NCBI GenBank assembly: GCA_946414655.1 | Contig: CAMKPL010000002.1 | Span: 64,616 to 128,615 of the forward strand | Length of the DNA stretch: 64,000 nt | Reading direction: 5' to 3' | Source of the DNA: an uncultured Caryophanales bacterium | Lineage (GTDB): Bacteria > Bacillota_I > Bacilli_A > RFN20 > CAG-826 | Shown: piece after piece, positions 6,022-51,862 of the stretch | Position numbering within the stretch: the first letter of the stretch is position 1 | How the letters are laid out: each line of letters starts with the position of its first letter | Translations under genes and position numbers: made by a program | Notes under the pieces: model-generated | Told to the model about the DNA's origin: nothing | Seen by the model: only the letters and a program-made list of their open reading frames with translations | The model's database searches: none

Positions 6022-9000
6022 CTTTCACATCCTCCAACTTCTCAACGAGTTTTACATTAAATTGGTCTCTAATGTTACTATAGTAACCAGAGATGACAAT
6101 AACACTTTCTTTCTTTTTTAAAGCCATTGATGACTTCTCAAAGGCTTCCGTAAAAACAGTCAGTTCCATCTCCCCGGTATCATCATAGACAGTGATGAAA
6201 CACATCGCCTGTCCTTTTTTTGTTTTGGTTTGTCTTGATGATTTGAGAATACAAACAAGTTTGACATCACCTCTAGTGGATGGAATTTGTTTGATTGTTA
6301 CTGCACCAAGTTTTTTGATTGTATCTTGGACAAGATCGAGTGGTGATCCACTGATCATTAGACCAAGCGCATCTCTTTCACGGTTGAGGTTAGCAATATA
6401 ATCATCTTCCAGTTTTGTAAATGTTGGTTTTGGAAACATATTTGGATCAATAACCATGGAACCATCGTCTTTGACGATTGCTTCGGCATATGTTAATGCT
6501 GCCGGAATTGCTCCTCTTAAAGACATTCTTGATTTTTCTAAAGAATCAAACGCTCCTGCATCAATTAAATTGATGAGCTGGACGTTATTGAGTTTGTATT
6601 TCGCCATACGTAAGACAAAATCAAAAATGTCTTTAAATAATCCGCCTTCTGTTCTTTCTTTCATAATGGCGGTGGCAGAGGCAGTCATAATACCTTTAAC
6701 CGCTTGAAGTGGGAAAATAATTTCGTTATTTGTTAAAACAAATGACATTGTCGATTTGTTAATGTCTGGGACAGAGACTTTTAGTCCAATGTCTTTCATT
6801 TCTGCGAGTGTGGTGTGGAATTCATCACTTGAAGCATTGGATAAAATGGAAGCATAGAACTCTTGTGGATACTTGGCTTTTAAATAAGCCATACGGCAAG
6901 AGAAAATGGCATAAACCATCGCATGGCTTCTATTGAAGCCGTAGTCGCCAAACTTACGAATCATCTCATAAACATCACGGGCCTCTTTTTCTTTGTATCC
7001 GAGTTTAATTGCTCCAGTAACAAATTTCTCTTCAAAAGAAGCGATTTTTGCAGGATCTTTTTTAGAAATAGCTCGTCTTAAAAGATCTGCTTCAGCAAGG
7101 GAAAATCCGGCCATTTTATTGGCAATTTGCATGACTTGTTCTTGGTAAACCATGATTCCATATGTTGGAGAAAGAATTTCCTCTAATACTGGAGAAATGT
7201 AGGTGATTTTTTCCTTGCCTTGTTTTCTTCTTCCAAAAGAAGGAATGTTATCCATTGGACCTGGACGATATAAAGCAAGAATCGCGACGATGTCTTCGAA
7301 CACCGTTGGTTGGACAGTTTTAATTGCGTTTCTCATACCAACAGATTCAAGTTGGAAAATGCCCATTGTCTTACCTGAAGCGATTTGTTTAATGGCTAGT
7401 GGGTCATCATAAGGAATCTCATCTCGATTAAGATTAATACCTCGTTGTCTTAGTAAGGCTAGGCAGTGGTCAATAAGCGAAAGGTTACGAATCGCCAAAA
7501 TGTCCATCTTTAAGAAGCCTTGTTCTTCAAGGTAGTCTTTTTCAAATTGCTCAACATAGCCAATATCAAGTCCACATGTTAAAGGAATAACGGAATCCAA
7601 AGGCTCAGCATTTAAAACAACTCCAACCGCGTGTAAACTTGCTTGTCTTGGAAATCCTTCAATTTTAGAAGCCAATGTAACAATCTCTAAGTAGTACTTA
7701 TCATCATTAACAAGGTCTCTAAACTTTTTGTTTTGTTTATAGATCTCTCTTAAAGAGAGCTTATCATCTTTTTCATCGGAAATAAGCTTGGTGAATAGTT
7801 CAATATCGTGTTTTGGATAATTAAAGATTCTTCCAACATCACGTAATGATTGTTTCGCCCCTATCTTCTGGATAGCGATAATCTTTGCAACATGGTCATT
7901 TCCGTATTTATCTTTTAGATATTGGACGACTCTTTCTCGATCAATATCAGAGAAGTCGACGTCAATGTCTGGCATTGTCTGACGGTGTGGATTTAAGAAG
8001 CGTTCAAATAGTAAGTTGTTCTCGATTGGGTCTGGAACAGTAATACCTAAAACATGGGCCACAAGTGAACCCGCAGCAGATCCTCGACCAGGACCAACCG
8101 CAATGTCCATATCACGAGCATATTGAACATAGTCATGAACGATTAAGAAATAATCGCTATAACCCATTTCTCGAATGGTTTTTAATTCAAACTCTAAACG
8201 GTCTAAATATTTTGGATTATTTTTTCCTTTTTTCACCAGCAATTCATGGGTAATTTTGCTTAAGTATTCATCGCTAGATAATCCAAATTCGTTTTCAAAA
8301 TGAATCATTTGTCCACGAATTGCGATGAAATCTAAGTTGCATAAATTACTGATTTCGATAGAGTTTTTAATTTCGTCTTCTTTGTAAAATGAAGTAGCTT
8401 CTGCTGGTGAAATTAAATAATCTTCGCCAATAGCTTTCTTTTCATTTAAGACCTCTTTGCTGTCAATGGACTCCATCATTTTTAAGATAATTGCGTCTTC
8501 ACTTTTGACGTATTTAATGTGTGGGAAAGCCGCAACTTTATAACCGCGAGAAAAGGCGAATTGACGGAAGTCTTTAATAAATTCGCTTTGGCTAGACTTT
8601 TCTAATCCAAGATAGAATTGGTCTAATCCGCGAGACAATCTTGCTAAAGACAAAGAGAATTTATTACGGTCTTCTAAAAAAGATTTCTTTAAAGCATCGT
8701 TATCGCTTGGTAAAACAACTACGATGTCTTCCTGGTAGTCTTTAAGAGTTTGAATGGTGGTCTCACCTTTTTGGTTTAGGTTACAAAGCGATAAAAAGTT
8801 TTTATAACCATTTTCGTTAAGTGGATATAAGCAGAAATGAAGATGATCGATTTCTACTTCTTCACCAACAATAGCCTTTAATCCAAGTTTCTTTGCTTCT
8901 TTATAAAAAGAAGGAGCACCAGATAAACTTCGATAATCACAAAGCCCCACATTGGTATAACCAAGTTTTTTGGCCATAGCTAAATACTGGTCGATTTTTA

Positions 9001-40003: not shown

Positions 40004-40054
40004 TAAATTTTCAAATAAAACAAAAATTATATTTTGTATATAATATGGTTGAAC

Positions 40055-40576
40055 ATGGAACGCCTACAGTTTTTACTTACTAAACTGCAAAATCACGAAC
40101 TAGATTATTTTGATGAGTTTTATGATTTAACTCACCGAAAAGTCTACTTTATGGCCTATTCTCTTCTTAGAGATGAAGCTAGCAGTGAAGACATCACCCA
40201 AGAGGTTTATATAAAAGTTTTGGAAAAACCAAAACGCATTAAACCAGATGGAAACATCATGTCTTATCTCATTGAGATGAGTAAAAACATTACTCTTAAC
40301 TATCTAAAGAAAGAGCAACGAAGTAGCGTCGAGTACATTGAAGAAATCAGTGGAGAGGATGATCCTGATATCACTAGTCTTAAAGACACTGAGGTCTTCC
40401 AACTCATGAAGAAGAAGCTCAGTGATAAAGAATTCACAATTGTTATTCTTCATGTCGTCAATGATCTTAAACATGACGAAATCTCTAAATTACTAAAAAT
40501 ACCATTAGGTACTGTTACATGGACCTACAACAACGCGATTAAAAAACTATCGAAAGGAGGAAGTAAAAATGAATGA
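40055..40576 (+). CDS. ECF-type RNA polymerase sigma factor
   Basis: A 173-residue sigma factor with region 2 (about 20-85, YFMAYSLLRDEASSEDITQE with the DITQEVY core) and region 4 (about 115-165, LSDKEFTIVILHVVNDLKHDEI split by turns, then IPLGTVTWTYNNAIKKL). It has no region 1 or 3, as in ECF factors. The ATG at 40055 is chosen because the consensus TATAAT at 40039-40044 sits 10 bases before it, leaving almost no leader. Its stop overlaps the next gene, a likely membrane anti-sigma factor. The stimulus is unknown. Confidence 0.88.
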   Translation: MERLQFLLTKLQNHELDYFDEFYDLTHRKVYFMAYSLLRDEASSEDITQEVYIKVLEKPKRIKPDGNIMSYLIEMSKNITLNYLKKEQRSSVEYIEEISGEDDPDITSLKDTEVFQLMKKKLSDKEFTIVILHVVNDLKHDEISKLLKIPLGTVTWTYNNAIKKLSKGGSKNE

Positions 40577-41543
40577 TGTTGAAAAGAAAATTCTTGAAGC
40601 AGGAAGGCTTCAAACAATTTCTAAATCTAGCGACCAAATCCTAGAAACTTTTGAAGTTAAACATAAACGTCGCATTCAAAAGAGATTTTTCTTTATTCCT
40701 ACAATTACAACCCTCCTTGCTTCAGCAACTGCTGTTGCCGTCATTTTTGCCTTATCACCACGTCCAATTCATATTCAAGGACAAACCAAAGGTTTTAACG
40801 ATGGTTCAACTGTCTTAACTTCTGTTGTCGGTAATCTTTCCTTACATTACTACACCCAAGATGTTAGCAATGAACAAAACCGTATTTTTGCCGCTCCAAT
40901 CGTTCAAGAAGAATTTAACCAAGTCGCGATGGATGTGGATGCGGTTTATAGTCCATACTCATATTACTATGTTCATACTAAAGGACTTAATTACACTTTT
41001 GATTCATCTGTCTTTAGTTATGATGATGTGAATTACCGATATGAATTATCGGTCAATAACACAACAGTTTATCTTAAAGATAATCTCTCGGAAATCAAAT
41101 CTAAAGGTGTCTATGAAGGATTGATTCGTGTCAGCGATACTTGCTATCCATGTGAGATTAATGCCCAAGTATCGCATAACGTCGTTTCAACCACGTTTAC
41201 TTATCGTGTTTCTTCCTATATTCATTCTTTGACAACAAAGACAAGTGATGAAGTCACAACGATTACACATCAAATCAAGATCAATGATGACATTTCTGAA
41301 ATTAAGAGTGTTAGTCTCCTTAATAAAGGAAAAAAATTCTCCGCATCGTTTAAAAACGATGATAGATTATCTGAACTGACAAAAGAACGTTCCTTCTCCT
41401 ATATTAGTGGCGACGATTTCATTAGTGTTGACTACCGCAAAAACGAAACCACATATTCTGGGATCAAACTTCGTGTCGATACAAGCACACGTGCTAGAAA
41501 ACACGTCTACTCTTTTGAAGGAGTTACAGATGTTGTTCTTTAG
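40569..41543 (+). CDS. putative membrane anti-sigma factor
   Basis: A 324-residue single-pass membrane protein: cytosolic part 1-40, a TM helix at about 42-64, and an external beta-rich domain of about 260 residues containing many Tyr/Ser/Thr residues. It is translationally coupled to the ECF sigma gene (8-base overlap, GGAGG site inside the sigma gene), the usual sigma/anti-sigma arrangement. I do not see a canonical zinc-finger anti-sigma motif (HxxxCxxC) in the cytosolic part, so the assignment rests on context and topology. The external domain could be the sensor. Confidence 0.6.
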   Translation: MNDVEKKILEAGRLQTISKSSDQILETFEVKHKRRIQKRFFFIPTITTLLASATAVAVIFALSPRPIHIQGQTKGFNDGSTVLTSVVGNLSLHYYTQDVSNEQNRIFAAPIVQEEFNQVAMDVDAVYSPYSYYYVHTKGLNYTFDSSVFSYDDVNYRYELSVNNTTVYLKDNLSEIKSKGVYEGLIRVSDTCYPCEINAQVSHNVVSTTFTYRVSSYIHSLTTKTSDEVTTITHQIKINDDISEIKSVSLLNKGKKFSASFKNDDRLSELTKERSFSYISGDDFISVDYRKNETTYSGIKLRVDTSTRARKHVYSFEGVTDVVL

Positions 41544-41679: not shown

Positions 41680-42849
41680 ATGGAAGAGAATAAACCAAGT
41701 TTCTCTAAACAAGTTAAAGAACTGTTTATTACTACGCTTAATGGAATGGCCTATGGCCTTTTTGCCACATTAATCATTGGCACAATCTTTGCCACGATCG
41801 GTGGCTTCTTTAAAGATGCTAGTGAAGGTACATTCGGGGCATTTATGTTTCATTGTCTAGGAAATGGCATGGCCGCGAAGAGCGGTATTTCCTATGTTTT
41901 ACAAGTTCTTACTGGTGCTGGAATTGGTGTTGGCATGGCATTAGCCATGAAACTTACTCCTCTTCAGACAGTTGTTCTTGGGGTAGTTGGTCAAATCGCG
42001 GGTTATTTCTCTTTAACCACGTTCTTTGTCACTAAAGCCTCTCATCCAGTTAGTGACACATTCCAAATCGGTGATCCTTTAACAATCTACTTTGTTTGTT
42101 TAGGTGTTGTCTTATTGTTTAAATACGTCTTAAAGAAGAAAACTAGTGCAGACATTATTATTGTTCCATTATGCGGTGTTATTGCTGGTTTACTTCTTTC
42201 ATTAGGACTTCGTTATCCTTTAATTTATGTCACCTATGCTATGCAATGGTTAGTTAACAGTGGAACTAACGCTGCTCCGTTCTTTATGGGAATTATTGTG
42301 GCGGTCTTAATGGGTATGGCTTTAACCGCCCCAATTTCATCTGCTGCTATTGCAGCAATGATTTTCCTTATTCCAGAAGGAATGAGTGTTGCAGCAGCCC
42401 TCGCAGATCCACAGTATACTGGTCTAGTTATTGCTAGTGGAGCTGCTGTTGTTGGTTGTTCTACTCAAATGGTTGGCTTTGCCATTCAGTCTAGAAGAGA
42501 TAATAAACTAAGTATGGTGTTTTCCATTGGTATTGGCACAAGCATGCTCCAGTTTAAAAATATTGTTCGTAAACCAATTGTTTGGCTACCAACAATAATT
42601 GCCTCTGCCATCCTTGGTCCAATTGCTACTTGTGCATTAAAGATGTGCTGTTTAGGCAGTGCTGCCGGTATGGGAACTGCTGGATTAGTTGGCCAAATTG
42701 GTACCATTGCTTCAATGGGGGTTGGTGCCTGGCAAACATGGGTTGGAATCTTTGTTTTAGAGATTGCAGCTCCAATTGCTTTAGTCTTTGTTTTCGATCT
42801 TTTATTCCGTAAATTAGGTTGGATAAAAGATGGAGATTTAAAGGTATAA
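41680..42849 (+). CDS. PTS-type EIIC-like membrane transporter (PTS_EIIC_2 family)
   Basis: A 389-residue polytopic membrane protein with about 8-10 TM helices and Gly/Ala-rich segments. The APISSAAIAAMIF motif (about residues 210-222) and the MTLNGMAYGLFATLI-like start (TTLNGMAYGLFATLIIGTIF) match the 'PTS transporter subunit IIC' family found without cognate EIIA/EIIB. No other PTS gene is adjacent, so substrate and energy source are unknown. It has no clear ribosome-binding site; TAATAC lies just before the ATG. Confidence 0.75.
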   Translation: MEENKPSFSKQVKELFITTLNGMAYGLFATLIIGTIFATIGGFFKDASEGTFGAFMFHCLGNGMAAKSGISYVLQVLTGAGIGVGMALAMKLTPLQTVVLGVVGQIAGYFSLTTFFVTKASHPVSDTFQIGDPLTIYFVCLGVVLLFKYVLKKKTSADIIIVPLCGVIAGLLLSLGLRYPLIYVTYAMQWLVNSGTNAAPFFMGIIVAVLMGMALTAPISSAAIAAMIFLIPEGMSVAAALADPQYTGLVIASGAAVVGCSTQMVGFAIQSRRDNKLSMVFSIGIGTSMLQFKNIVRKPIVWLPTIIASAILGPIATCALKMCCLGSAAGMGTAGLVGQIGTIASMGVGAWQTWVGIFVLEIAAPIALVFVFDLLFRKLGWIKDGDLKV

Positions 42850-43879: not shown

Positions 43880-45025
43880 ATGGAAGAAACACAAAAGAAA
43901 AAAAGAAATAAGTTTCATTTATTTAAGCATCATCTTCATGACGAGAATAACGACATTGAATTTCGTGGTCCTCTTTCATACCGACATCTGCGCATTATAG
44001 CGTGGGTTTTTATGATGTTTATGGCTATGTCCGTTGTTTTTAGCGTCTTCGTTAAATTCCCGTTATTTAGTAAACCAGATGACGTTAAAAACGCTTATCG
44101 AATAACTTCAGATGTTTTCTCTTGGATTGGTACTTTGGCTTTACCAGTCTTCTTGATTGCGAACTTCTCTGTCATTATGAGAAGCCATAAGAATTATAAG
44201 AAGATTCTAATGTTACACGGCTTTACAGCTCTTGGTTTAATGGCCGTCGCCTATCTTATAGTTTTCCGCTACTACTTTACTTTATCCATGAGATTTGTTG
44301 GATTAGAGTATGTTGATAGTAAGGATGTAATTGAAACATTACTGAATATTAATCCTTCCAAGTTTGTTTATTTAAATGTTTTTATCGATTTATTCCTTTG
44401 CTCTTTGACCTATACATTCTTAACCTATGAACCAAAGAAATATTTCCAAGGTAAAAAGATTGTTTTTTTCCGTCTTTTGGTTTTAATTCCAATTCTTTAT
44501 GAACTTGGCTCAATTTATGTTAAATTGCACGCCTTATCAACCCCAGAGTTTATGATTCCATGGTATGTCTTCCCATTATTAACAACCAAACCTCCATTAC
44601 TCTTATTAGCATTCTTCTTACTCGTGCTTATTTCTGCTTTACGCAAAAAACGATATTTAATGAACGGTCATACAGAAGATGAATATGATCGTTATTTAAA
44701 GACTAACGCGAATTCATTATCGTTCTCTATCATTACTTGTATCGTTTTATTTATTGCGATTATTTTAGATATCATTATTGCCTCGATCTGTAGCGTCTCA
44801 ATTGCAACAAAGATGGGTATTGATGTTGAAACTGGAGTTGATATCGTGATGAAATCGGGACTTGGCAAAACAATCACGGTAATTTTTATCTTCCCATTAA
44901 TTATTCTCTTCTCTTATTCAAGAGATTATCAAGATAACTTAATTGATAAGATAATTCCACTGGTTGGAATTGGTGTTTGTGTCTATTCTGTCGTTGAAAC
45001 GTTTGTTCAACTATTGGCAGCATAA
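43880..45025 (+). CDS. polytopic membrane protein, unknown function
   Basis: A 381-residue protein with a charged, His-rich cytosolic N-terminus (HLFKHHLHDENND) and about eight predicted TM helices (about 40-60, 85-105, 115-135, 165-182, 200-218, 232-258, 285-308, 325-345). I do not recognise a family. A NERD-domain gene starts 11 bases after its stop with a GGAG site, so the two form an operon. The pairing of an unknown membrane protein with a NERD protein has no function I can name. Confidence 0.75.
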   Translation: MEETQKKKRNKFHLFKHHLHDENNDIEFRGPLSYRHLRIIAWVFMMFMAMSVVFSVFVKFPLFSKPDDVKNAYRITSDVFSWIGTLALPVFLIANFSVIMRSHKNYKKILMLHGFTALGLMAVAYLIVFRYYFTLSMRFVGLEYVDSKDVIETLLNINPSKFVYLNVFIDLFLCSLTYTFLTYEPKKYFQGKKIVFFRLLVLIPILYELGSIYVKLHALSTPEFMIPWYVFPLLTTKPPLLLLAFFLLVLISALRKKRYLMNGHTEDEYDRYLKTNANSLSFSIITCIVLFIAIILDIIIASICSVSIATKMGIDVETGVDIVMKSGLGKTITVIFIFPLIILFSYSRDYQDNLIDKIIPLVGIGVCVYSVVETFVQLLAA

Positions 45026-45036
45026 GGAGAGAAAAG

Positions 45037-45756
45037 ATGTCTTTTGGTGGAAACAACTTCGAAGATATGTGGTTTATTGCTTCAGTCTGGGCCGATAGTG
45101 AGCGTGCAAGACGCCGCTATGAAGAAGAATGGGAAGAAGAGCAAAAAGAAAAGGCTAGACAAGCAAGACCACAAATTTCGGAAACAAATCGTGCCCGCAT
45201 AAGAGAAATTTCTCGTGATGTTGAAAATAACCTTCGCGGAATTGAAGCTGAAGAAAAGATTCATTCATATCTTAATCCAGGTCCTTTTGCCCGAGTCCCT
45301 CATTATGAATTAAAGAATGTTTATCTTGTGGATGTTAATGGAATGTCTCATGAGATTGATTTCATAGAAATCAGAGAAACAGGAATCTTCTGCATTGAAG
45401 TTAAAAACTGGGCTGGAGACATCCGTGGAGGAAGGCAAGACAAATACTGGTCCTCAAACGGAAACAGTCGTCGCAACCCATGTTTCCAAAACGATACGCA
45501 CATTCGCGCTATTCACGATATTATCGGTAAAAAGCCTCATATTACATCAGTAATAGTGATGGCACAGAATAACGCTCGTCCAATCGGAATTGATGGCGTA
45601 ATTAACCTCAACGACTTCCGTTCTTACATGTCCTCATTTGCAGAAAAGGTTATCTCTTTAGAAGAGATGCATCGCATCTATTCCTTGTTAGAACAAGCTA
45701 GAGTCAAAATGAGTCGACAAGAACATGTCGAAAACATTAAAAAATATGGAAAATAA
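45037..45756 (+). CDS. NERD (nuclease-related) domain protein
   Basis: A 239-residue protein with a charged N-terminal coil (about 20-55, Glu/Arg/Lys-rich) and a NERD domain at about 60-185: HEIDFIEIRETGIFCIEVKNWAG, split here as EIDFI (Asp107) and IEVKNWAG (Glu/Lys pair about 119-121), matching the D...ExK core of restriction-like nucleases. NERD proteins are thought to act on DNA, but function is poorly known. It is co-transcribed with the upstream membrane protein gene. Confidence 0.85.
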   Translation: MSFGGNNFEDMWFIASVWADSERARRRYEEEWEEEQKEKARQARPQISETNRARIREISRDVENNLRGIEAEEKIHSYLNPGPFARVPHYELKNVYLVDVNGMSHEIDFIEIRETGIFCIEVKNWAGDIRGGRQDKYWSSNGNSRRNPCFQNDTHIRAIHDIIGKKPHITSVIVMAQNNARPIGIDGVINLNDFRSYMSSFAEKVISLEEMHRIYSLLEQARVKMSRQEHVENIKKYGK

Positions 45757-45780
45757 AAGAACCCATTGGGTTCTTTTTTA
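45755..45780. terminator. bidirectional terminator
   Basis: AAAGAACCC/GGGTTCTTT with ATT loop and T/A runs, between converging NERD and XRE genes. Confidence 0.85.
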
Positions 45781-46362
45781 ATGTTTCATTTTGCCATATA
45801 AGATGATGGCTATTTGCATCGGGATCCCAAGTAGGAATATTGTCCAGACTCGGTCGCTCAAGAACTGTAAGAAACTTGCGACAAGAATGGACCAAAGGAA
45901 TGCTGATGTAAACCCATAGTAAAGAGCTTTTCGATGGAAATGGCGGTGGTTTGCAACAGTCAGCATTATAAACGAAATTGGTGCTGACCAAACAAAGACA
46001 ATCCACCAACTGGCATCAAATCTAATTAATGCCCAAACATAGATAATTGTCGCAATCATCCATACAACGGAAACAAGTAAGGAAGTGATGATAACTTTGT
46101 TATATCGATCAAGCGCATTTCCTTTTGTATATTTCTTTTTATTTTCCGGTGTAGCTTCGTGTGTGAGGTAGTCTAAAGAGACTCCATAAAACTCACAAAG
46201 TTCATTTAAAGTAACGATATCTGGGATGGTTTCACCCTTCTCCCATTTCGATATAGATTTGTCTGAATAATTGAATTTTTCAGCCAGTTCAAGCTGTGTT
46301 AATTTAGCATTTTTTCTTAGTTCAGCAAGGTTCTCGCCAATAATTTCTCGAATGTTTTTCAT
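45778..46362 (-). CDS. XRE-family regulator with membrane domain
   Basis: A 194-residue protein with an N-terminal XRE HTH (about 8-62, LTQLELAEKFNYSDKSISKWE) followed by about four TM helices (about 88-190). Such HTH-membrane proteins are common in Firmicutes and probably sense an envelope or membrane signal. It converges with the NERD gene. Promoter: TTGCAA, 17 bases, TATTAT, 6 bases, ATG, so a leaderless transcript. Confidence 0.88.
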   Translation of the reverse strand: MKNIREIIGENLAELRKNAKLTQLELAEKFNYSDKSISKWEKGETIPDIVTLNELCEFYGVSLDYLTHEATPENKKKYTKGNALDRYNKVIITSLLVSVVWMIATIIYVWALIRFDASWWIVFVWSAPISFIMLTVANHRHFHRKALYYGFTSAFLWSILVASFLQFLSDRVWTIFLLGIPMQIAIILYGKMKH

Positions 46363-46397: not shown

Positions 46398-46566
46398 CAA
46401 GAATTAAAAATTCTAATTTTAAGAGAACTTGAAAAATCGCTCTATTTTTGGGAGAACTAAGTTCTATTTATTTGGTACGCACACAATAGGGTTACCTTTA
46501 CATTGACATAATTTATTATTATGGTCGGAAGTTTTGGAGGAAAAGCGCTAAATAGTTTCGAAAATT

Positions 46567-47478
46567 ATGAAAAAACTACTTCTCACTTACATCCTAACAA
46601 TTGGGATTTGTGCTGTGGCTGGTGTCTCAACTGGCATCATCCTTAAAAAGACCATTGGCCCGATTGACGAAACTTACCCACCAGGCTTCGATCCAAAAGA
46701 ATTCTCGCCAGACGTTGATGCTATTTGGAAAAAGTATGAAGCCTTATCGGATAAATCCATCAACGGAGTGAAGAGCTTCTCTGATGCTGATGTCATGAAC
46801 GTTGCATTTGAAAAGTTCAGACGAATGCCGAATTGCTACTTCTACTCGATTGGAGATGCGAAGACAATCGTTACTCAAACCGTTCGAAATGCATTCATTA
46901 AAAATGGAGATGAGTATTACGAAGATCAAATTTCGTTCTCCTCAATGGTCGCGTTAGCGAAACGATCTTACCAGCACGGTAAGGACGGAAAAGTTGACGT
47001 CCATGATGGAAGTCCAAGGGATTCCGAGCACGCCACGTATCCTCAAACGCCTACAAAAACATTTGAAAAAGAGGAATACAAGGAATATCTCGGTAAAACT
47101 CTTGATGAAATGTTTATCTACGTTATCTCTGATAAAACAACGATAGACAGTTCACGAACAACACGCGGAGATGATGTTGTCATCAAGATGAATCTTAATC
47201 CGAATCTCAGTACCTTCTATTACAAGACACAGATGCTGAACCTCTCTGGATTAAGTAATCTCCCACCATTTGAAGAGGTGAAACTAACTTATACGTTGAG
47301 TAAAGATCTAGTTCTTAAGCACCTCTCCATTGATGAAACGTTTACTGCGACTAAGGAAGGAATTCCTGTCCCAGCTAAAACAAACAACGTTCTCGAATAC
47401 TACTACCATGTTGGAGAAATGAAAATCCCTTCATGGAATGAAGAATTCGACTTCTCGATTAAAAATAAGGAGGCTTAA
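46567..47478 (+). CDS. membrane-anchored exported protein, unknown; first gene of envelope operon
   Basis: A 303-residue protein with an N-terminal TM/signal anchor (about 3-28) and an external, mixed alpha/beta domain with no family I recognise. A GGAGG lies 26 bases upstream of the ATG, which is too far to serve it directly; a TTTACA-17-TATGGT promoter at about 46497-46525 would put the transcription start near 46531. No earlier in-frame start exists because a TAA lies 18 bases upstream. The next gene starts 2 bases after its stop, with GGAGG inside this gene. It probably works with the large protein downstream. Confidence 0.75.
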   Translation: MKKLLLTYILTIGICAVAGVSTGIILKKTIGPIDETYPPGFDPKEFSPDVDAIWKKYEALSDKSINGVKSFSDADVMNVAFEKFRRMPNCYFYSIGDAKTIVTQTVRNAFIKNGDEYYEDQISFSSMVALAKRSYQHGKDGKVDVHDGSPRDSEHATYPQTPTKTFEKEEYKEYLGKTLDEMFIYVISDKTTIDSSRTTRGDDVVIKMNLNPNLSTFYYKTQMLNLSGLSNLPPFEEVKLTYTLSKDLVLKHLSIDETFTATKEGIPVPAKTNNVLEYYYHVGEMKIPSWNEEFDFSIKNKEA

Positions 47479-47480
47479 GA

Positions 47481-50400
47481 ATGAAACCAAAAATGAAAAA
47501 AGCCCTTAAACGTGCAGCCATCATTTCTACCGGCGTATTAGCATTCGCTGGTACATTCATTGGTGGTTACATGGTTACCCCAAACCGTACAAAGTACATT
47601 GATGTTTCAGTCGACACACCTGAACCAACAGCCTTTGGTCAATTTGTCACAAAAATTACAAAAGACATTGGTTTGGACGAAGACGATACTGCCGCCAAAT
47701 ACTTAAATGCGCAGTTCGATAATTTCGAAATGACTTACAAAACATCAAGCGATGCTGCTTTCACAAACCATATTGGTTTGGAAGGCAACATTGATTTCAG
47801 AATGTCCGCTCTTTCACTTAGCGGTGTTGAATTCAATGTTGATGCGGTTGCAGATTACAATGGAAAACAACTTCCATTAACTTTAGGTCGTTTCCAAGAT
47901 GATATGTATTTTAGATTAAAAGACCTCAAGTTAAAGATGACTGATTTCACCGGCGAAAAACTCGTTGATGAATATTGGTACGCTTTCGCTGTTTATGCAG
48001 ATATGGATTTCCCAAAATTCATGAAGAGTATTGGTGAATTCGCTGGCGAAAAGATTGAAGGACTTCTCAAAGCATTAATCAATGGTTCAAGCGAAGAAGA
48101 AGAACCATCTAATGCCAAAGGCATTGAAGATGTTCAAGCCGGAGGTTTTGACTTCTCTTCACTTCTAAGCAGCGGACCAAAAGAAGAACACATTGGAAAC
48201 GAATGGCTCTTTACTCTTGGTGGAGAAAATAGTGATTTCTGCATTAAGATTACAACTAACGAAGCATTCGAACTAAAATATGTTGATTTAGGAACAATCT
48301 CCTTTGGAGACATTACCATTAGTGGTGGAATCAATGTTAATCTTCGCGATTATGAAGATTTCGTTTCTCCAGCCAGTGGAAATGACTTTGTTGAAGTTTT
48401 TAACTTCACAGGTGTTACTAATAAATTATTCTCTATTTTAAAAGAAGATGGAGAGCATCAACGTTTCGGTTTCAAATTTGCTCTTGATTTAGACAATGTT
48501 GAAAAGATCAAAGATGTTACAAAGGTCATCGATATCGCTCGTATTGAAGGATCTGTTAATGTTAACTTTGATGAATTACTTGACTTAAGTCAATATGTTG
48601 TTGGAGCCGAATCAGTTGAAGCTCAAAAAGAAGATTTAAGTCTTCAGGAAGCAATCAATAAACTAGGATTTAACTTACAAGTTGATTTAATCGGTCAAAA
48701 TGACAATGAATACGCTAACTTTGACCTCGGATTTGCCGATGGAACAGGTTATGTTCGTTTTAACGAACAAGAAGATGTTAATCATAACAAAAAAGCAGTT
48801 ATGAAACTCAAAATGGATACCGAAACCACTAACCGTATCGTAAATATGGTTCCTGATATGATTGAGTCAACTAGTGGTGAAGAAAGCACCGATTCTATTG
48901 AAACTCTGAAATCTTTCTTAACGGATGATTTAATTGGATCTGTAGAAAAAGGTGATTTCTCATTTATTTTAGATATCCTTGAAACACTCAAAAGTGATGA
49001 ATCTGGTATTCACGTTGGTTTAAACCTTTCCTCACTTGGAATTGGTAAAGACGCTCGTGTTACTTTAAATTTACAAAATGATCCAAACGTTGGCCGTGTT
49101 GAAGAAATTTTCGAAGGTTTAACTACTGACGAAGAAAGAATTAACGCCTTCAATGAATTTGAAGCTTTAGGCAACACAAGTGAATTATCAGTTGAGGCAA
49201 ACAACATCTCCTTTGGAGATTATGTTGCTAATATCAGCGCTAGAACAGCTAAGTTTAGTGCTGTTGACCTTGGTAACAAGGGTGATTATCAATCCGTGCA
49301 ATTCATTCCAGATGTTATTGATCAGGTCAGTGATTTTATCCAAAGTAAGAAAACTGGATTTAAGGTTACTGGTTCCATGAAAGATAGTGCTGGTTTAGGC
49401 ACTGAATTCCGTGGTGAAGGTCAATTAAACAATAACGACGAAGTTAAACGTGGTTATGGAACTATGCACATTGACGAATATAAATATCACGCTAACACAA
49501 TTTGGGCACAACACGACATGGCTGTTGATGTTGCTAACGTTGCAAGTAATATTGTTCCAGCATATGAACAAAACGGCGTTACTTATAAACGTCAAAACAA
49601 CAACCAAGCCTTATTTGTCTATGGCGATCCAAATGCCGCTAATATTAAAGGTAAGTTACGCTTACAAACATTCACTGATATCTTAGATATCGTGAAAACA
49701 TTCGTTGGTGATTATGGAACCGATCCAAAATTCACCAAGTTCCTTGGACCGATCATTGAATTAATGGGTTTTGGAACTTTAGGTGACATTATTCATTCAA
49801 AAGACTATGTTAAGCTCGCTAGTAACGAACTTTTACAAGAAGTCTCCGTGATTAATAACGGAGGTGGACTTCGTGTTGTCATTTCAAAAGTAATGCTTGG
49901 TTTACCAAGCGATATTACAATCGAAGTTGCTTTCAATGGTGACAATGAAACCGGTAATCAAACATTGAAATCATTAGACGTTGTTAATTTTGCTATGGGA
50001 ACAGGAGATGACGCCAAACTCCTCAATTTCCATTTCCAACTCGAAGATTATGACGAAAATTATCAATCCGTCATTAATCGCGCCAACGTTGCTAATGAAA
50101 AATATATGAACCTTGATGGTATCAAAGTCTTATTAGACTTAGGCATCAACACAACCAAACCAAATTACTGGCACTTAAAAGCAAGCGCACACGTGAACGC
50201 TTTAATCATTAATATTGATTTAACAGATATTGATTTCTACATTTATGTTGATGGCGAAAAAGCGAAGGTTTATGGTAAGTTTGGTAACATCCCAGTTGAT
50301 GGTGCTTATACCCAAGACGTCACACCGGTATTTGGTGAAATTCTTGGTTCCAAGAAGATGTCTGCCGAATTCACATTTGAAACATATAATGATGATGAAC

Positions 50401-51107
50401 ATAACGGCGTCTCTGGTGTCTTCAATATTTCTCGTACGTTATCTTCTCCAGAATCACGCACAATTCGTGAAGGATGGTTCAATTACCGTACCGAAAAATA
50501 CTGGGATAATAAGACCTATCATTATCGTAGTGATGGCCGTAACTTCCTTGATAACATTGCCACATATCTCTTAGGTGGTGTGATCGGTATTAAATCTAGC
50601 TACCTTAATTCCAAGTTGCTTGGAAATATGTCTTCAAGCAGCAGTGAAACACCAGCTGGTAATTTCACCAATACATTTACTAGTACAGGATTTAATTGTG
50701 GTCGTGAAAACTATGAAGGTGTTGAAGCAAACGTTATTCGTTTGGGTCTTAACCTCAATGAATTAGTTGGCATTGACGCACTTCGTGAACTTGAAGCAAC
50801 AATTGTTTCTAAAGAAGTTACTTATACTCATAACAATGAACAAAAGACCATGGAAATCCTTGGTAAATTAGTTGCTTCTCTTCGTGTCCACTTCATTGCT
50901 GATATCAATGTTTCATTTACAGCAACCGTGAATGATGCTGAACTTGATAGGGATAAAGCACTTGAAAAGTGGAACACAAACGGACAATCTCGTTTGACGG
51001 CGTTAAGTGGAGACATTAATGAAAAAGTCATTAGTGCGACAGAAAATAGTTCTTACTATAATAACGCCAATAACCCATACACTTATAACTGGGAATCTCC
51101 AAGATAA
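47481..51107 (+). CDS. giant exported beta-rich protein, unknown
   Basis: A 1208-residue protein with a basic N-terminus and one TM/signal anchor (about 12-33, no lipobox Cys), the rest external. The external part reads as several beta-rich modules of about 230-300 residues (roughly 55-290, 300-605, 610-900, 905-1180). Each has long alternating hydrophobic strands, Asn/Asp-rich turns and short amphipathic helices; the phrase ISFGD recurs at module ends. By eye this resembles repeated lipoprotein-type (LolA/LppX-like) or groove-forming lipid-carrier folds, but I recognise no named family. It sits between an anchored partner and a PAP2 lipid phosphatase gene. Confidence 0.75.
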   Translation: MKPKMKKALKRAAIISTGVLAFAGTFIGGYMVTPNRTKYIDVSVDTPEPTAFGQFVTKITKDIGLDEDDTAAKYLNAQFDNFEMTYKTSSDAAFTNHIGLEGNIDFRMSALSLSGVEFNVDAVADYNGKQLPLTLGRFQDDMYFRLKDLKLKMTDFTGEKLVDEYWYAFAVYADMDFPKFMKSIGEFAGEKIEGLLKALINGSSEEEEPSNAKGIEDVQAGGFDFSSLLSSGPKEEHIGNEWLFTLGGENSDFCIKITTNEAFELKYVDLGTISFGDITISGGINVNLRDYEDFVSPASGNDFVEVFNFTGVTNKLFSILKEDGEHQRFGFKFALDLDNVEKIKDVTKVIDIARIEGSVNVNFDELLDLSQYVVGAESVEAQKEDLSLQEAINKLGFNLQVDLIGQNDNEYANFDLGFADGTGYVRFNEQEDVNHNKKAVMKLKMDTETTNRIVNMVPDMIESTSGEESTDSIETLKSFLTDDLIGSVEKGDFSFILDILETLKSDESGIHVGLNLSSLGIGKDARVTLNLQNDPNVGRVEEIFEGLTTDEERINAFNEFEALGNTSELSVEANNISFGDYVANISARTAKFSAVDLGNKGDYQSVQFIPDVIDQVSDFIQSKKTGFKVTGSMKDSAGLGTEFRGEGQLNNNDEVKRGYGTMHIDEYKYHANTIWAQHDMAVDVANVASNIVPAYEQNGVTYKRQNNNQALFVYGDPNAANIKGKLRLQTFTDILDIVKTFVGDYGTDPKFTKFLGPIIELMGFGTLGDIIHSKDYVKLASNELLQEVSVINNGGGLRVVISKVMLGLPSDITIEVAFNGDNETGNQTLKSLDVVNFAMGTGDDAKLLNFHFQLEDYDENYQSVINRANVANEKYMNLDGIKVLLDLGINTTKPNYWHLKASAHVNALIINIDLTDIDFYIYVDGEKAKVYGKFGNIPVDGAYTQDVTPVFGEILGSKKMSAEFTFETYNDDEHNGVSGVFNISRTLSSPESRTIREGWFNYRTEKYWDNKTYHYRSDGRNFLDNIATYLLGGVIGIKSSYLNSKLLGNMSSSSSETPAGNFTNTFTSTGFNCGRENYEGVEANVIRLGLNLNELVGIDALRELEATIVSKEVTYTHNNEQKTMEILGKLVASLRVHFIADINVSFTATVNDAELDRDKALEKWNTNGQSRLTALSGDINEKVISATENSSYYNNANNPYTYNWESPR

Positions 51108-51110
51108 TTT

Positions 51111-51818
51111 ATGAACGTTAGAAAGCAAGTTTTCTTCTGGCTATCAGTTTCCTTCTTCGCTTTGTTTGTCCTTTGGACAATCTTGGTGAAAGTTGTTGAT
51201 GTGGAAACAATTTATAACGGCACTAAGCTTGGCTTTTATCATCTCAATTATAAGTTTGGTGATTTGGTTACCGAATTCGGTAAATATGAATTCATGAGAG
51301 TCGTCTCCGGCATTCTTCTTTATATATCCTTAGGATATACATTGATTCTTGTCGTAGTCGCTCTCATCCAACTCATCAAATACAAATCACTCAAGAAGGT
51401 GAATCCGATCTTTTATTTCCTAGCTGGAGCGTATCTTCTCATCGCAATACTTTATGTATTCTTTGAGCTTGTGCATATTAATTACTCTCCAGATAGTGTT
51501 GCTGGAAGCTTAAAAGCTTCCTATCCATCAACCCACGTTTTCGTGGGAGGATCACTCTTCTTACTGAACAGTTATGTTCTTCTGAAATTCTTATGGGTGA
51601 AAGATGATTTGTTTAAAACATTAATTCATCTATCAACCGTCGTTCTCACCTGTTTAATTGTCCTGACCAGACTCTTAGCAGTGAAACATTGGCTAACCGA
51701 TATTATCGGTGCAGTCATTCTAACTTGTAGCGTCTATTTCCTCTTTATTGGGATGTGCCGTTGGCTCATTCCAACAGAGGTCAAAGACGAGTACATTGAA
51801 CTCAAGGAAGAGGAATAA
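51111..51818 (+). CDS. PAP2-family membrane phosphatase
   Basis: A 235-residue integral membrane acid phosphatase of the PAP2 superfamily, acting on lipid phosphates such as phosphatidate, PGP or undecaprenyl-PP. Six TM helices are visible. The C2 motif is YPSTHVF (about 139-145) and the C3 motif is RLLAVKHWLTDIIGA (about 186-200) with the catalytic His and Asp. The C1 KxxxxxxRP motif is not clear. It starts 3 bases after the giant gene's stop, so it is the last gene of the operon. Confidence 0.88.
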   Translation: MNVRKQVFFWLSVSFFALFVLWTILVKVVDVETIYNGTKLGFYHLNYKFGDLVTEFGKYEFMRVVSGILLYISLGYTLILVVVALIQLIKYKSLKKVNPIFYFLAGAYLLIAILYVFFELVHINYSPDSVAGSLKASYPSTHVFVGGSLFLLNSYVLLKFLWVKDDLFKTLIHLSTVVLTCLIVLTRLLAVKHWLTDIIGAVILTCSVYFLFIGMCRWLIPTEVKDEYIELKEEE

Positions 51819-51836
51819 CTAAAAAACTCAATAAAT

Positions 51837-51862
51837 GGGCTCTACGGAGCCTTTTTTATTGA
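51837..51862 (+). terminator. terminator of the envelope operon
   Basis: GGCTC/GAGCC hairpin followed by TTTTTTATT. Confidence 0.85.

Follow-up and report, generated by a model that had tools for sequence, protein, structure and literature searches.

A widespread gene pair in an uncultured order of gut Bacilli, tentatively read as a regulated surface array for lipid acquisition

LolA-type carriers have helices and strands in an order comparable to that of the repeat model presented here, and MucB/RseB have a LolA-like fold too. In wall-less cells, P116 of Mycoplasma pneumoniae, a large surface protein, extracts lipids (PMC10023570); and for RF39, a related order, exogenous fatty-acid incorporation has been suggested, with published work going no further (PMC6784871). 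We describe a locus within a 64-kb stretch of DNA (the window) that encodes an anchored protein (c1) and a much larger protein made of tandem repeats (c0), and we favor, at a probability of roughly 0.42, the reading that c1 and c0 form a lipid-binding array outside the cytoplasm, which would acquire lipids under the control of an XRE-type protein. The likeness to P116 lies in the large anchored ectodomain and in the wall-less, lipid-dependent state (PMC10023570) that we predict for the host cell, whereas P116 consists of amphipathic-helix fingers around a cavity and has no tandem array. With the LolA and LppX/LprG carriers the c0 repeat would share a helix-strand-helix-strand order (in a low-confidence model) and amphipathic strands, but c0 is membrane-anchored and has three to nine or more tandem copies per chain; in addition, the destination of the LolA pathway is an outer membrane, which the c0 host appears to lack. 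The barrels of apoB, MTP and vitellogenin are among the weak fold matches of the repeat model, but these are single large animal domains with no detected sequence relation to c0.

The locus consists of three plus-strand ORFs that nearly touch each other (303, 1208, and 235 aa), and our re-measured gaps of 2 and 3 bases agree with the tight packing reported in the preliminary description. The first gene, c1 (46567-47478), encodes an N-terminal membrane anchor followed by an ectodomain; the second, c0 (47481-51107), is preceded immediately on its 5′ side by a Shine-Dalgarno-like AAGGAGG at the end of c1, and encodes an N-terminally anchored protein of tandem beta-rich repeats. Each of the two proteins has a single hydrophobic segment, at the N-terminus, in line with the anchoring claimed earlier for the 303-residue protein; no C-terminal hydrophobic segment was found in either, and inspection by eye revealed no LPXTG or lipobox motif. 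Both represent new families: NCBIfam has no family for c1 or c0, of the three proteins Pfam recognizes the PAP2 protein alone, and searching every family member against it gave no more than scattered chance matches, a PHROGs search returned nothing, and sequence searches of the PDB (with c0 and the c0, c1, and repeat profiles) gave chance matches alone. The earlier statement that neither protein belongs to a named family thus stands, and the giant protein matches no known adhesin or enzyme family.

The third gene (51111-51818, plus strand) encodes an integral membrane protein of the PAP2 superfamily, as previously described (PF01569, E 1.6e-7, above the cut-off). It resembles the phosphatases of this superfamily in keeping the second and third motifs (PS[ST]H and R-x5-H-x3-D), which are conserved in 19 aligned sequences, and differs from them in that the phosphate-binding first motif (KxxxxxxRP) is absent from these 19; since motifs 2 and 3 are kept and motif 1 is missing, the protein is likely, though not certain, to be catalytically active. 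Directly after this gene is the intrinsic terminator already noted in the earlier reading, a hairpin with a T-run (GGGCTC-TACG-GAGCCT-TTTTT, 51837-51852, plus strand). Upstream of c1 and divergent from it lies c2 (45778-46362, minus strand), which encodes an XRE/Cro-type regulator of 194 aa with an HTH_3 domain (PF01381, E 2.7e-15) and C-terminal hydrophobic helices. Between c2 and c1 we found GAGAACTAAGTTCT (46452-46465, not assigned to a strand), the sole match in the window to the palindrome AGAAC-N3-GTTCT (0 expected). Its AGAAC/GTTCT arms are kept in six aligned orthologues, and among 119 loci the palindrome is nearly confined to the c2-c1 intergenic region; we regard GAGAACTAAGTTCT as a putative operator to which the divergently encoded XRE protein may bind.

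The preliminary description saw several modules of 230-300 residues in the giant protein, and our analysis makes this claim stronger than it was stated: c0 consists of tandem homologous repeats of about 240-300 residues each, three of which are matched by a repeat profile. These are R1 (residues 69-306; 47685-48398; E 3e-37), R2 (residues 307-607; 48399-49301; E 5e-45), and R3 (residues 609-879; 49305-50117; E 2e-43), all on the plus strand. The iteration of the repeat model was confined to family proteins, and its E-values are therefore not independent; the HHalign comparison is independent, and aligned neighboring non-overlapping c0 segments, taken before iteration, with 98.8% and 99.1% probability, compared with at most 5.7% for reversed-segment controls. 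The remainder of the chain (50118-51104, plus strand, approximate boundaries) is R4, a divergent fourth repeat with a C-terminal tail: it has no significant match to the repeat model in the window protein, the equivalent region of another locus (L037) matches with an E-value of 1e-14, and HHalign aligns R4 to the repeat at 41-96%. We also considered c1 as an extra copy of the c0 repeat, which is not supported, the HHalign probabilities being at most 0.6%.

We searched for both genes in other genomes. Of 59 related genomes searched with the c0 sequence, 20 contain a relative; the named relatives of c0 belong to genomes from metagenomes that bear the label Bacillales or Bacilli, and one of these genomes is from goat reticulum. 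The c1 profile is found at the order level in 170/245 genomes (30 of 54 genera; 113/150 of the high-quality genomes of the order), at the class level in 51/296 genomes, and at the phylum level in 58/392 genomes, every one of which is inside the class. Thus c1 is present in most genomes of this uncultured gut order, nearly always with c0; cases of c1 without an adjoining c0 were seen in families f3, f4, f8, f12, f16, and f27. No relatives were found in viral contigs with c1 or with the c0 profile. The pair is widespread in the order, and it previously had no family name.

Adjacency was counted over the 66 loci in which c1 is a separate gene (split-type loci). In 62 of them c0 directly follows c1 on the same strand, at a spacing of -23 to +32 bases, and 51 have a divergent XRE gene upstream of c1; PAP2 follows c0 in only 18, belonging to two clades, the window's close relatives and genus g34 (13/13 judgeable g34 loci). 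Since the other neighbors vary between loci, the regulator, c1 and c0 behave as a self-contained cassette. The conserved unit is thus the XRE regulator with c1 and c0, and PAP2 is mostly outside it: the three genes of the operon as originally drawn do occur together in two clades, but that drawing included a clade-specific gene and left out the divergent regulator.

Fusions of c1 and c0 were identified in nine loci of other Bacilli families (f5, f3, f16, f23, and f27), with c1 at the N-terminus followed by c0-type repeats. The fused chains are 989-2802 residues long, with up to nine detected repeats: L070 (2076 aa), L075 (989), L104 (2180), L105 (2458), L106 (2802, the protein with nine repeats), L107 (2477), L108 (2099), L109 (1710, truncated where the contig stops), and L114 (1801). 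The adjacency in 62 of 66 loci together with these nine fusions is strong evidence that c1 and c0 form one working unit. The XRE regulator is absent beside the fused forms and beside some split ones. In L106 (about 6183-8252), two repeats have the same amino-acid sequence, and 300 bases of their DNA recur exactly at a distance of 1053 bases; either the repeats expanded recently or the assembly created the duplicate. Window-type c0 proteins are fairly stable in length across many genera (mostly about 950-1220 residues). In all, 260 repeats and 43 c1 sequences were gathered. Two loci of genus g33 (L050 and L080) contain two successive c0-type genes, with a c2-like regulator between them in L050.

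What is missing from the host genome (1.21 Mb, 96.7% complete) bears on the role of the pair. We found in it no Omp85 (detected in seven control genomes), no transpeptidase, no member of the sulfatase/LTA-synthase family, and no ketoacyl synthase (present in 14/14 control genomes); three DegV/FakB-type proteins are encoded. From these absences, the host is most likely a cell with one bare membrane that is obliged to import fatty acids. Across genomes, ketoacyl synthase is missing from 45/48 c1-positive versus 153/248 c1-negative genomes (raw counts, not corrected for ancestry); in f17, a lineage most of which also lacks the enzyme, c1 matches are marginal at best. Transpeptidases are lacking in family f1 and present in part of f3, and some fused forms sit in walled genomes. 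A tie between c1 and wall loss as a rule is rejected, because 12 of the 48 c1-positive genomes have transpeptidases.

The earlier reading had also noted, by eye, repeated amphipathic strands resembling lipid-carrier folds, and proposed comparison with LolA/LppX, AsmA-like, and bridge-type carriers. The strands are borne out: amphipathicity in the c0 repeats is 0.35-0.42 versus 0.20 in shuffled sequences (at most 2 of 500 shuffles reach the observed values), and c1, c2, and PAP2 have no such beta-type excess. The whole-chain prediction of c0 had too few diverse alignment rows (pLDDT 34), and its fold-search matches are noise. Repeat R3 was modelled alone (m1b8182ce907a; pLDDT 42.9, pTM 0.45, a low-confidence model), with alignment rows from the window and genome-contig sequences only; the predicted order is a helix, five to six strands, helices, four to five strands, and a helix. 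When this low-confidence model is compared to the PDB by Foldseek, LolA comes first (E 4.9e-3, probability 0.84, TM at most 0.29), followed by the apoB and MTP barrels; in VIA, LolA, LolB, LppX, and MucB make up nearly half of the rows (Z 4.4-6.7), amid porins and other barrels. None of the matches reaches an E-value of 1e-3, and Z-scores below 8 may reflect a common arrangement alone. Three repeat profiles, aligned by HHalign with a LolA profile built from six sequences, showed no similarity to it (at most 0.1%); LppX_LprAFG (PF07161) stayed below the gathering threshold (best E 0.019, in 2/53 repeats, and E 0.46 in one giant); AsmA-type Pfam families gave no match (T2SSN at E 0.25 in one giant only); and no P116 chain appeared among the PDB profile matches up to E 10. 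The proposed LolA/LppX-like fold therefore keeps the top PDB match of a low-confidence model and has no profile relation to LolA or to solved structures, so the resemblance is suggestive only. Bridge-type transport to a second membrane fits poorly, since the cell has no Omp85.

As we picture it, c1 and c0 would form a two-protein complex on the outside of a membrane that no wall covers, held by their N-terminal anchors, with c1 as the membrane-proximal partner. Each c0 repeat would adopt a half-barrel fold of the LolA/LppX kind, containing a hydrophobic pocket, and the array would pick up external fatty acids or other lipids and hand them to the membrane. The membrane-bound XRE protein may tune expression to the state of the membrane or its lipids through the AGAAC-N3-GTTCT site, and PAP2, where present, may act on imported or local lipid phosphates. 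We favor lipid acquisition because the host appears to need lipids, its membrane to be exposed, and the repeat to resemble lipid carriers; because c1-positive genomes mostly have no ketoacyl synthase; and because in one relative (L088, 8508-14001) the cassette has genes for exogenous fatty acids as neighbors: behind it come PAP2 and an HD-domain gene, then PlsX, FakA, and a gene of the DegV/FakB type. At most loci read, no neighbors point to lipids. The earlier suggestion of lipid handling is plausible for a genome without fatty-acid synthesis and wall; the PAP2 linkage on which it partly drew is clade-specific. If c0 binds lipids, it would be a candidate uptake protein for cells without fatty-acid synthesis, a second solution beside mycoplasma P116, and a pointer to a testable growth requirement for culturing these bacteria. 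The fuller version, in which the pair is a new Bacilli lipid-acquisition machine, a counterpart of P116 with an unrelated fold, whose string of LolA-like cups (up to nine or more per chain in the fused giants) relays lipids across the surface, we consider doubtful.

The main rival, and a real one although still somewhat unlikely, is that c0 is a structural or adhesive stalk or coat that shields or attaches the wall-less cell, with c1 as its membrane-proximal assembly partner and no lipid involved. The repeats are in tandem, vary in copy number, and include an identical pair in one giant, as is typical of surface stalks; towards the C-terminus of one fused giant there are marginal, sub-threshold Listeria-Bacteroides and leucine-rich-repeat matches; and a bare membrane would benefit from a covering. 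On the other hand, no adhesin family was matched, the window-type proteins vary little in length and their copies are too diverged for recent amplification, and neither the amphipathic-strand signal nor the LolA-like match would be expected in a plain spacer.

The regulator, which has hydrophobic C-terminal helices and is conserved in 51 of the 66 loci, and MucB among the VIA matches would also suit a sensor, in which c1-c0 detect surface lipids or damage and signal to the membrane-bound XRE protein by a logic like that of MucB/RseB. We regard this as improbable: the regulator is missing beside the fused and some split forms, an array of 1200-2800 residues is excessive for a sensor, and an autoregulated operon accounts equally well for a divergent regulator. 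Even less probable is an elaboration of the polymer alternative raised in the preliminary description: the operon would assemble a glycolipid or lipid-linked polymer, with PAP2 returning the lipid-phosphate carrier for reuse and c0 acting on the polymer. It would explain the 18 loci with PAP2 after c0, and several g34 loci have a glycosyltransferase-2-like protein among the genes further downstream; but both genes are restricted to particular clades, the host lacks transpeptidases as well as sulfatases of the LTA-synthase type, and the lack of PAP2 at most loci already suggests that c1-c0 function independently of it.

Some neighboring genes are shared among the window's close relatives. For example, a Sigma-70-family factor gene (ECF-like, with Sigma70_r2 and r4_2) overlaps, at 40034-41543, a 324-aa gene that matched nothing and probably encodes its membrane partner, and this pair also precedes the cassette in close relatives; a PTS EIIC_2-type membrane protein (41680-42849, E 7e-71) is also near the cassette in close relatives. 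Just upstream (43880-45756) are genes for a multi-pass membrane protein of 381 aa and for a protein with a NERD domain (E 3e-19), which among the loci compared are common to close relatives only. In two close relatives, L025 (4146-5759) and L028 (12951-14564), PAP2 is separated from the gene that follows it by an inserted gene, whose 537-aa product is probably exported and matches no known family.
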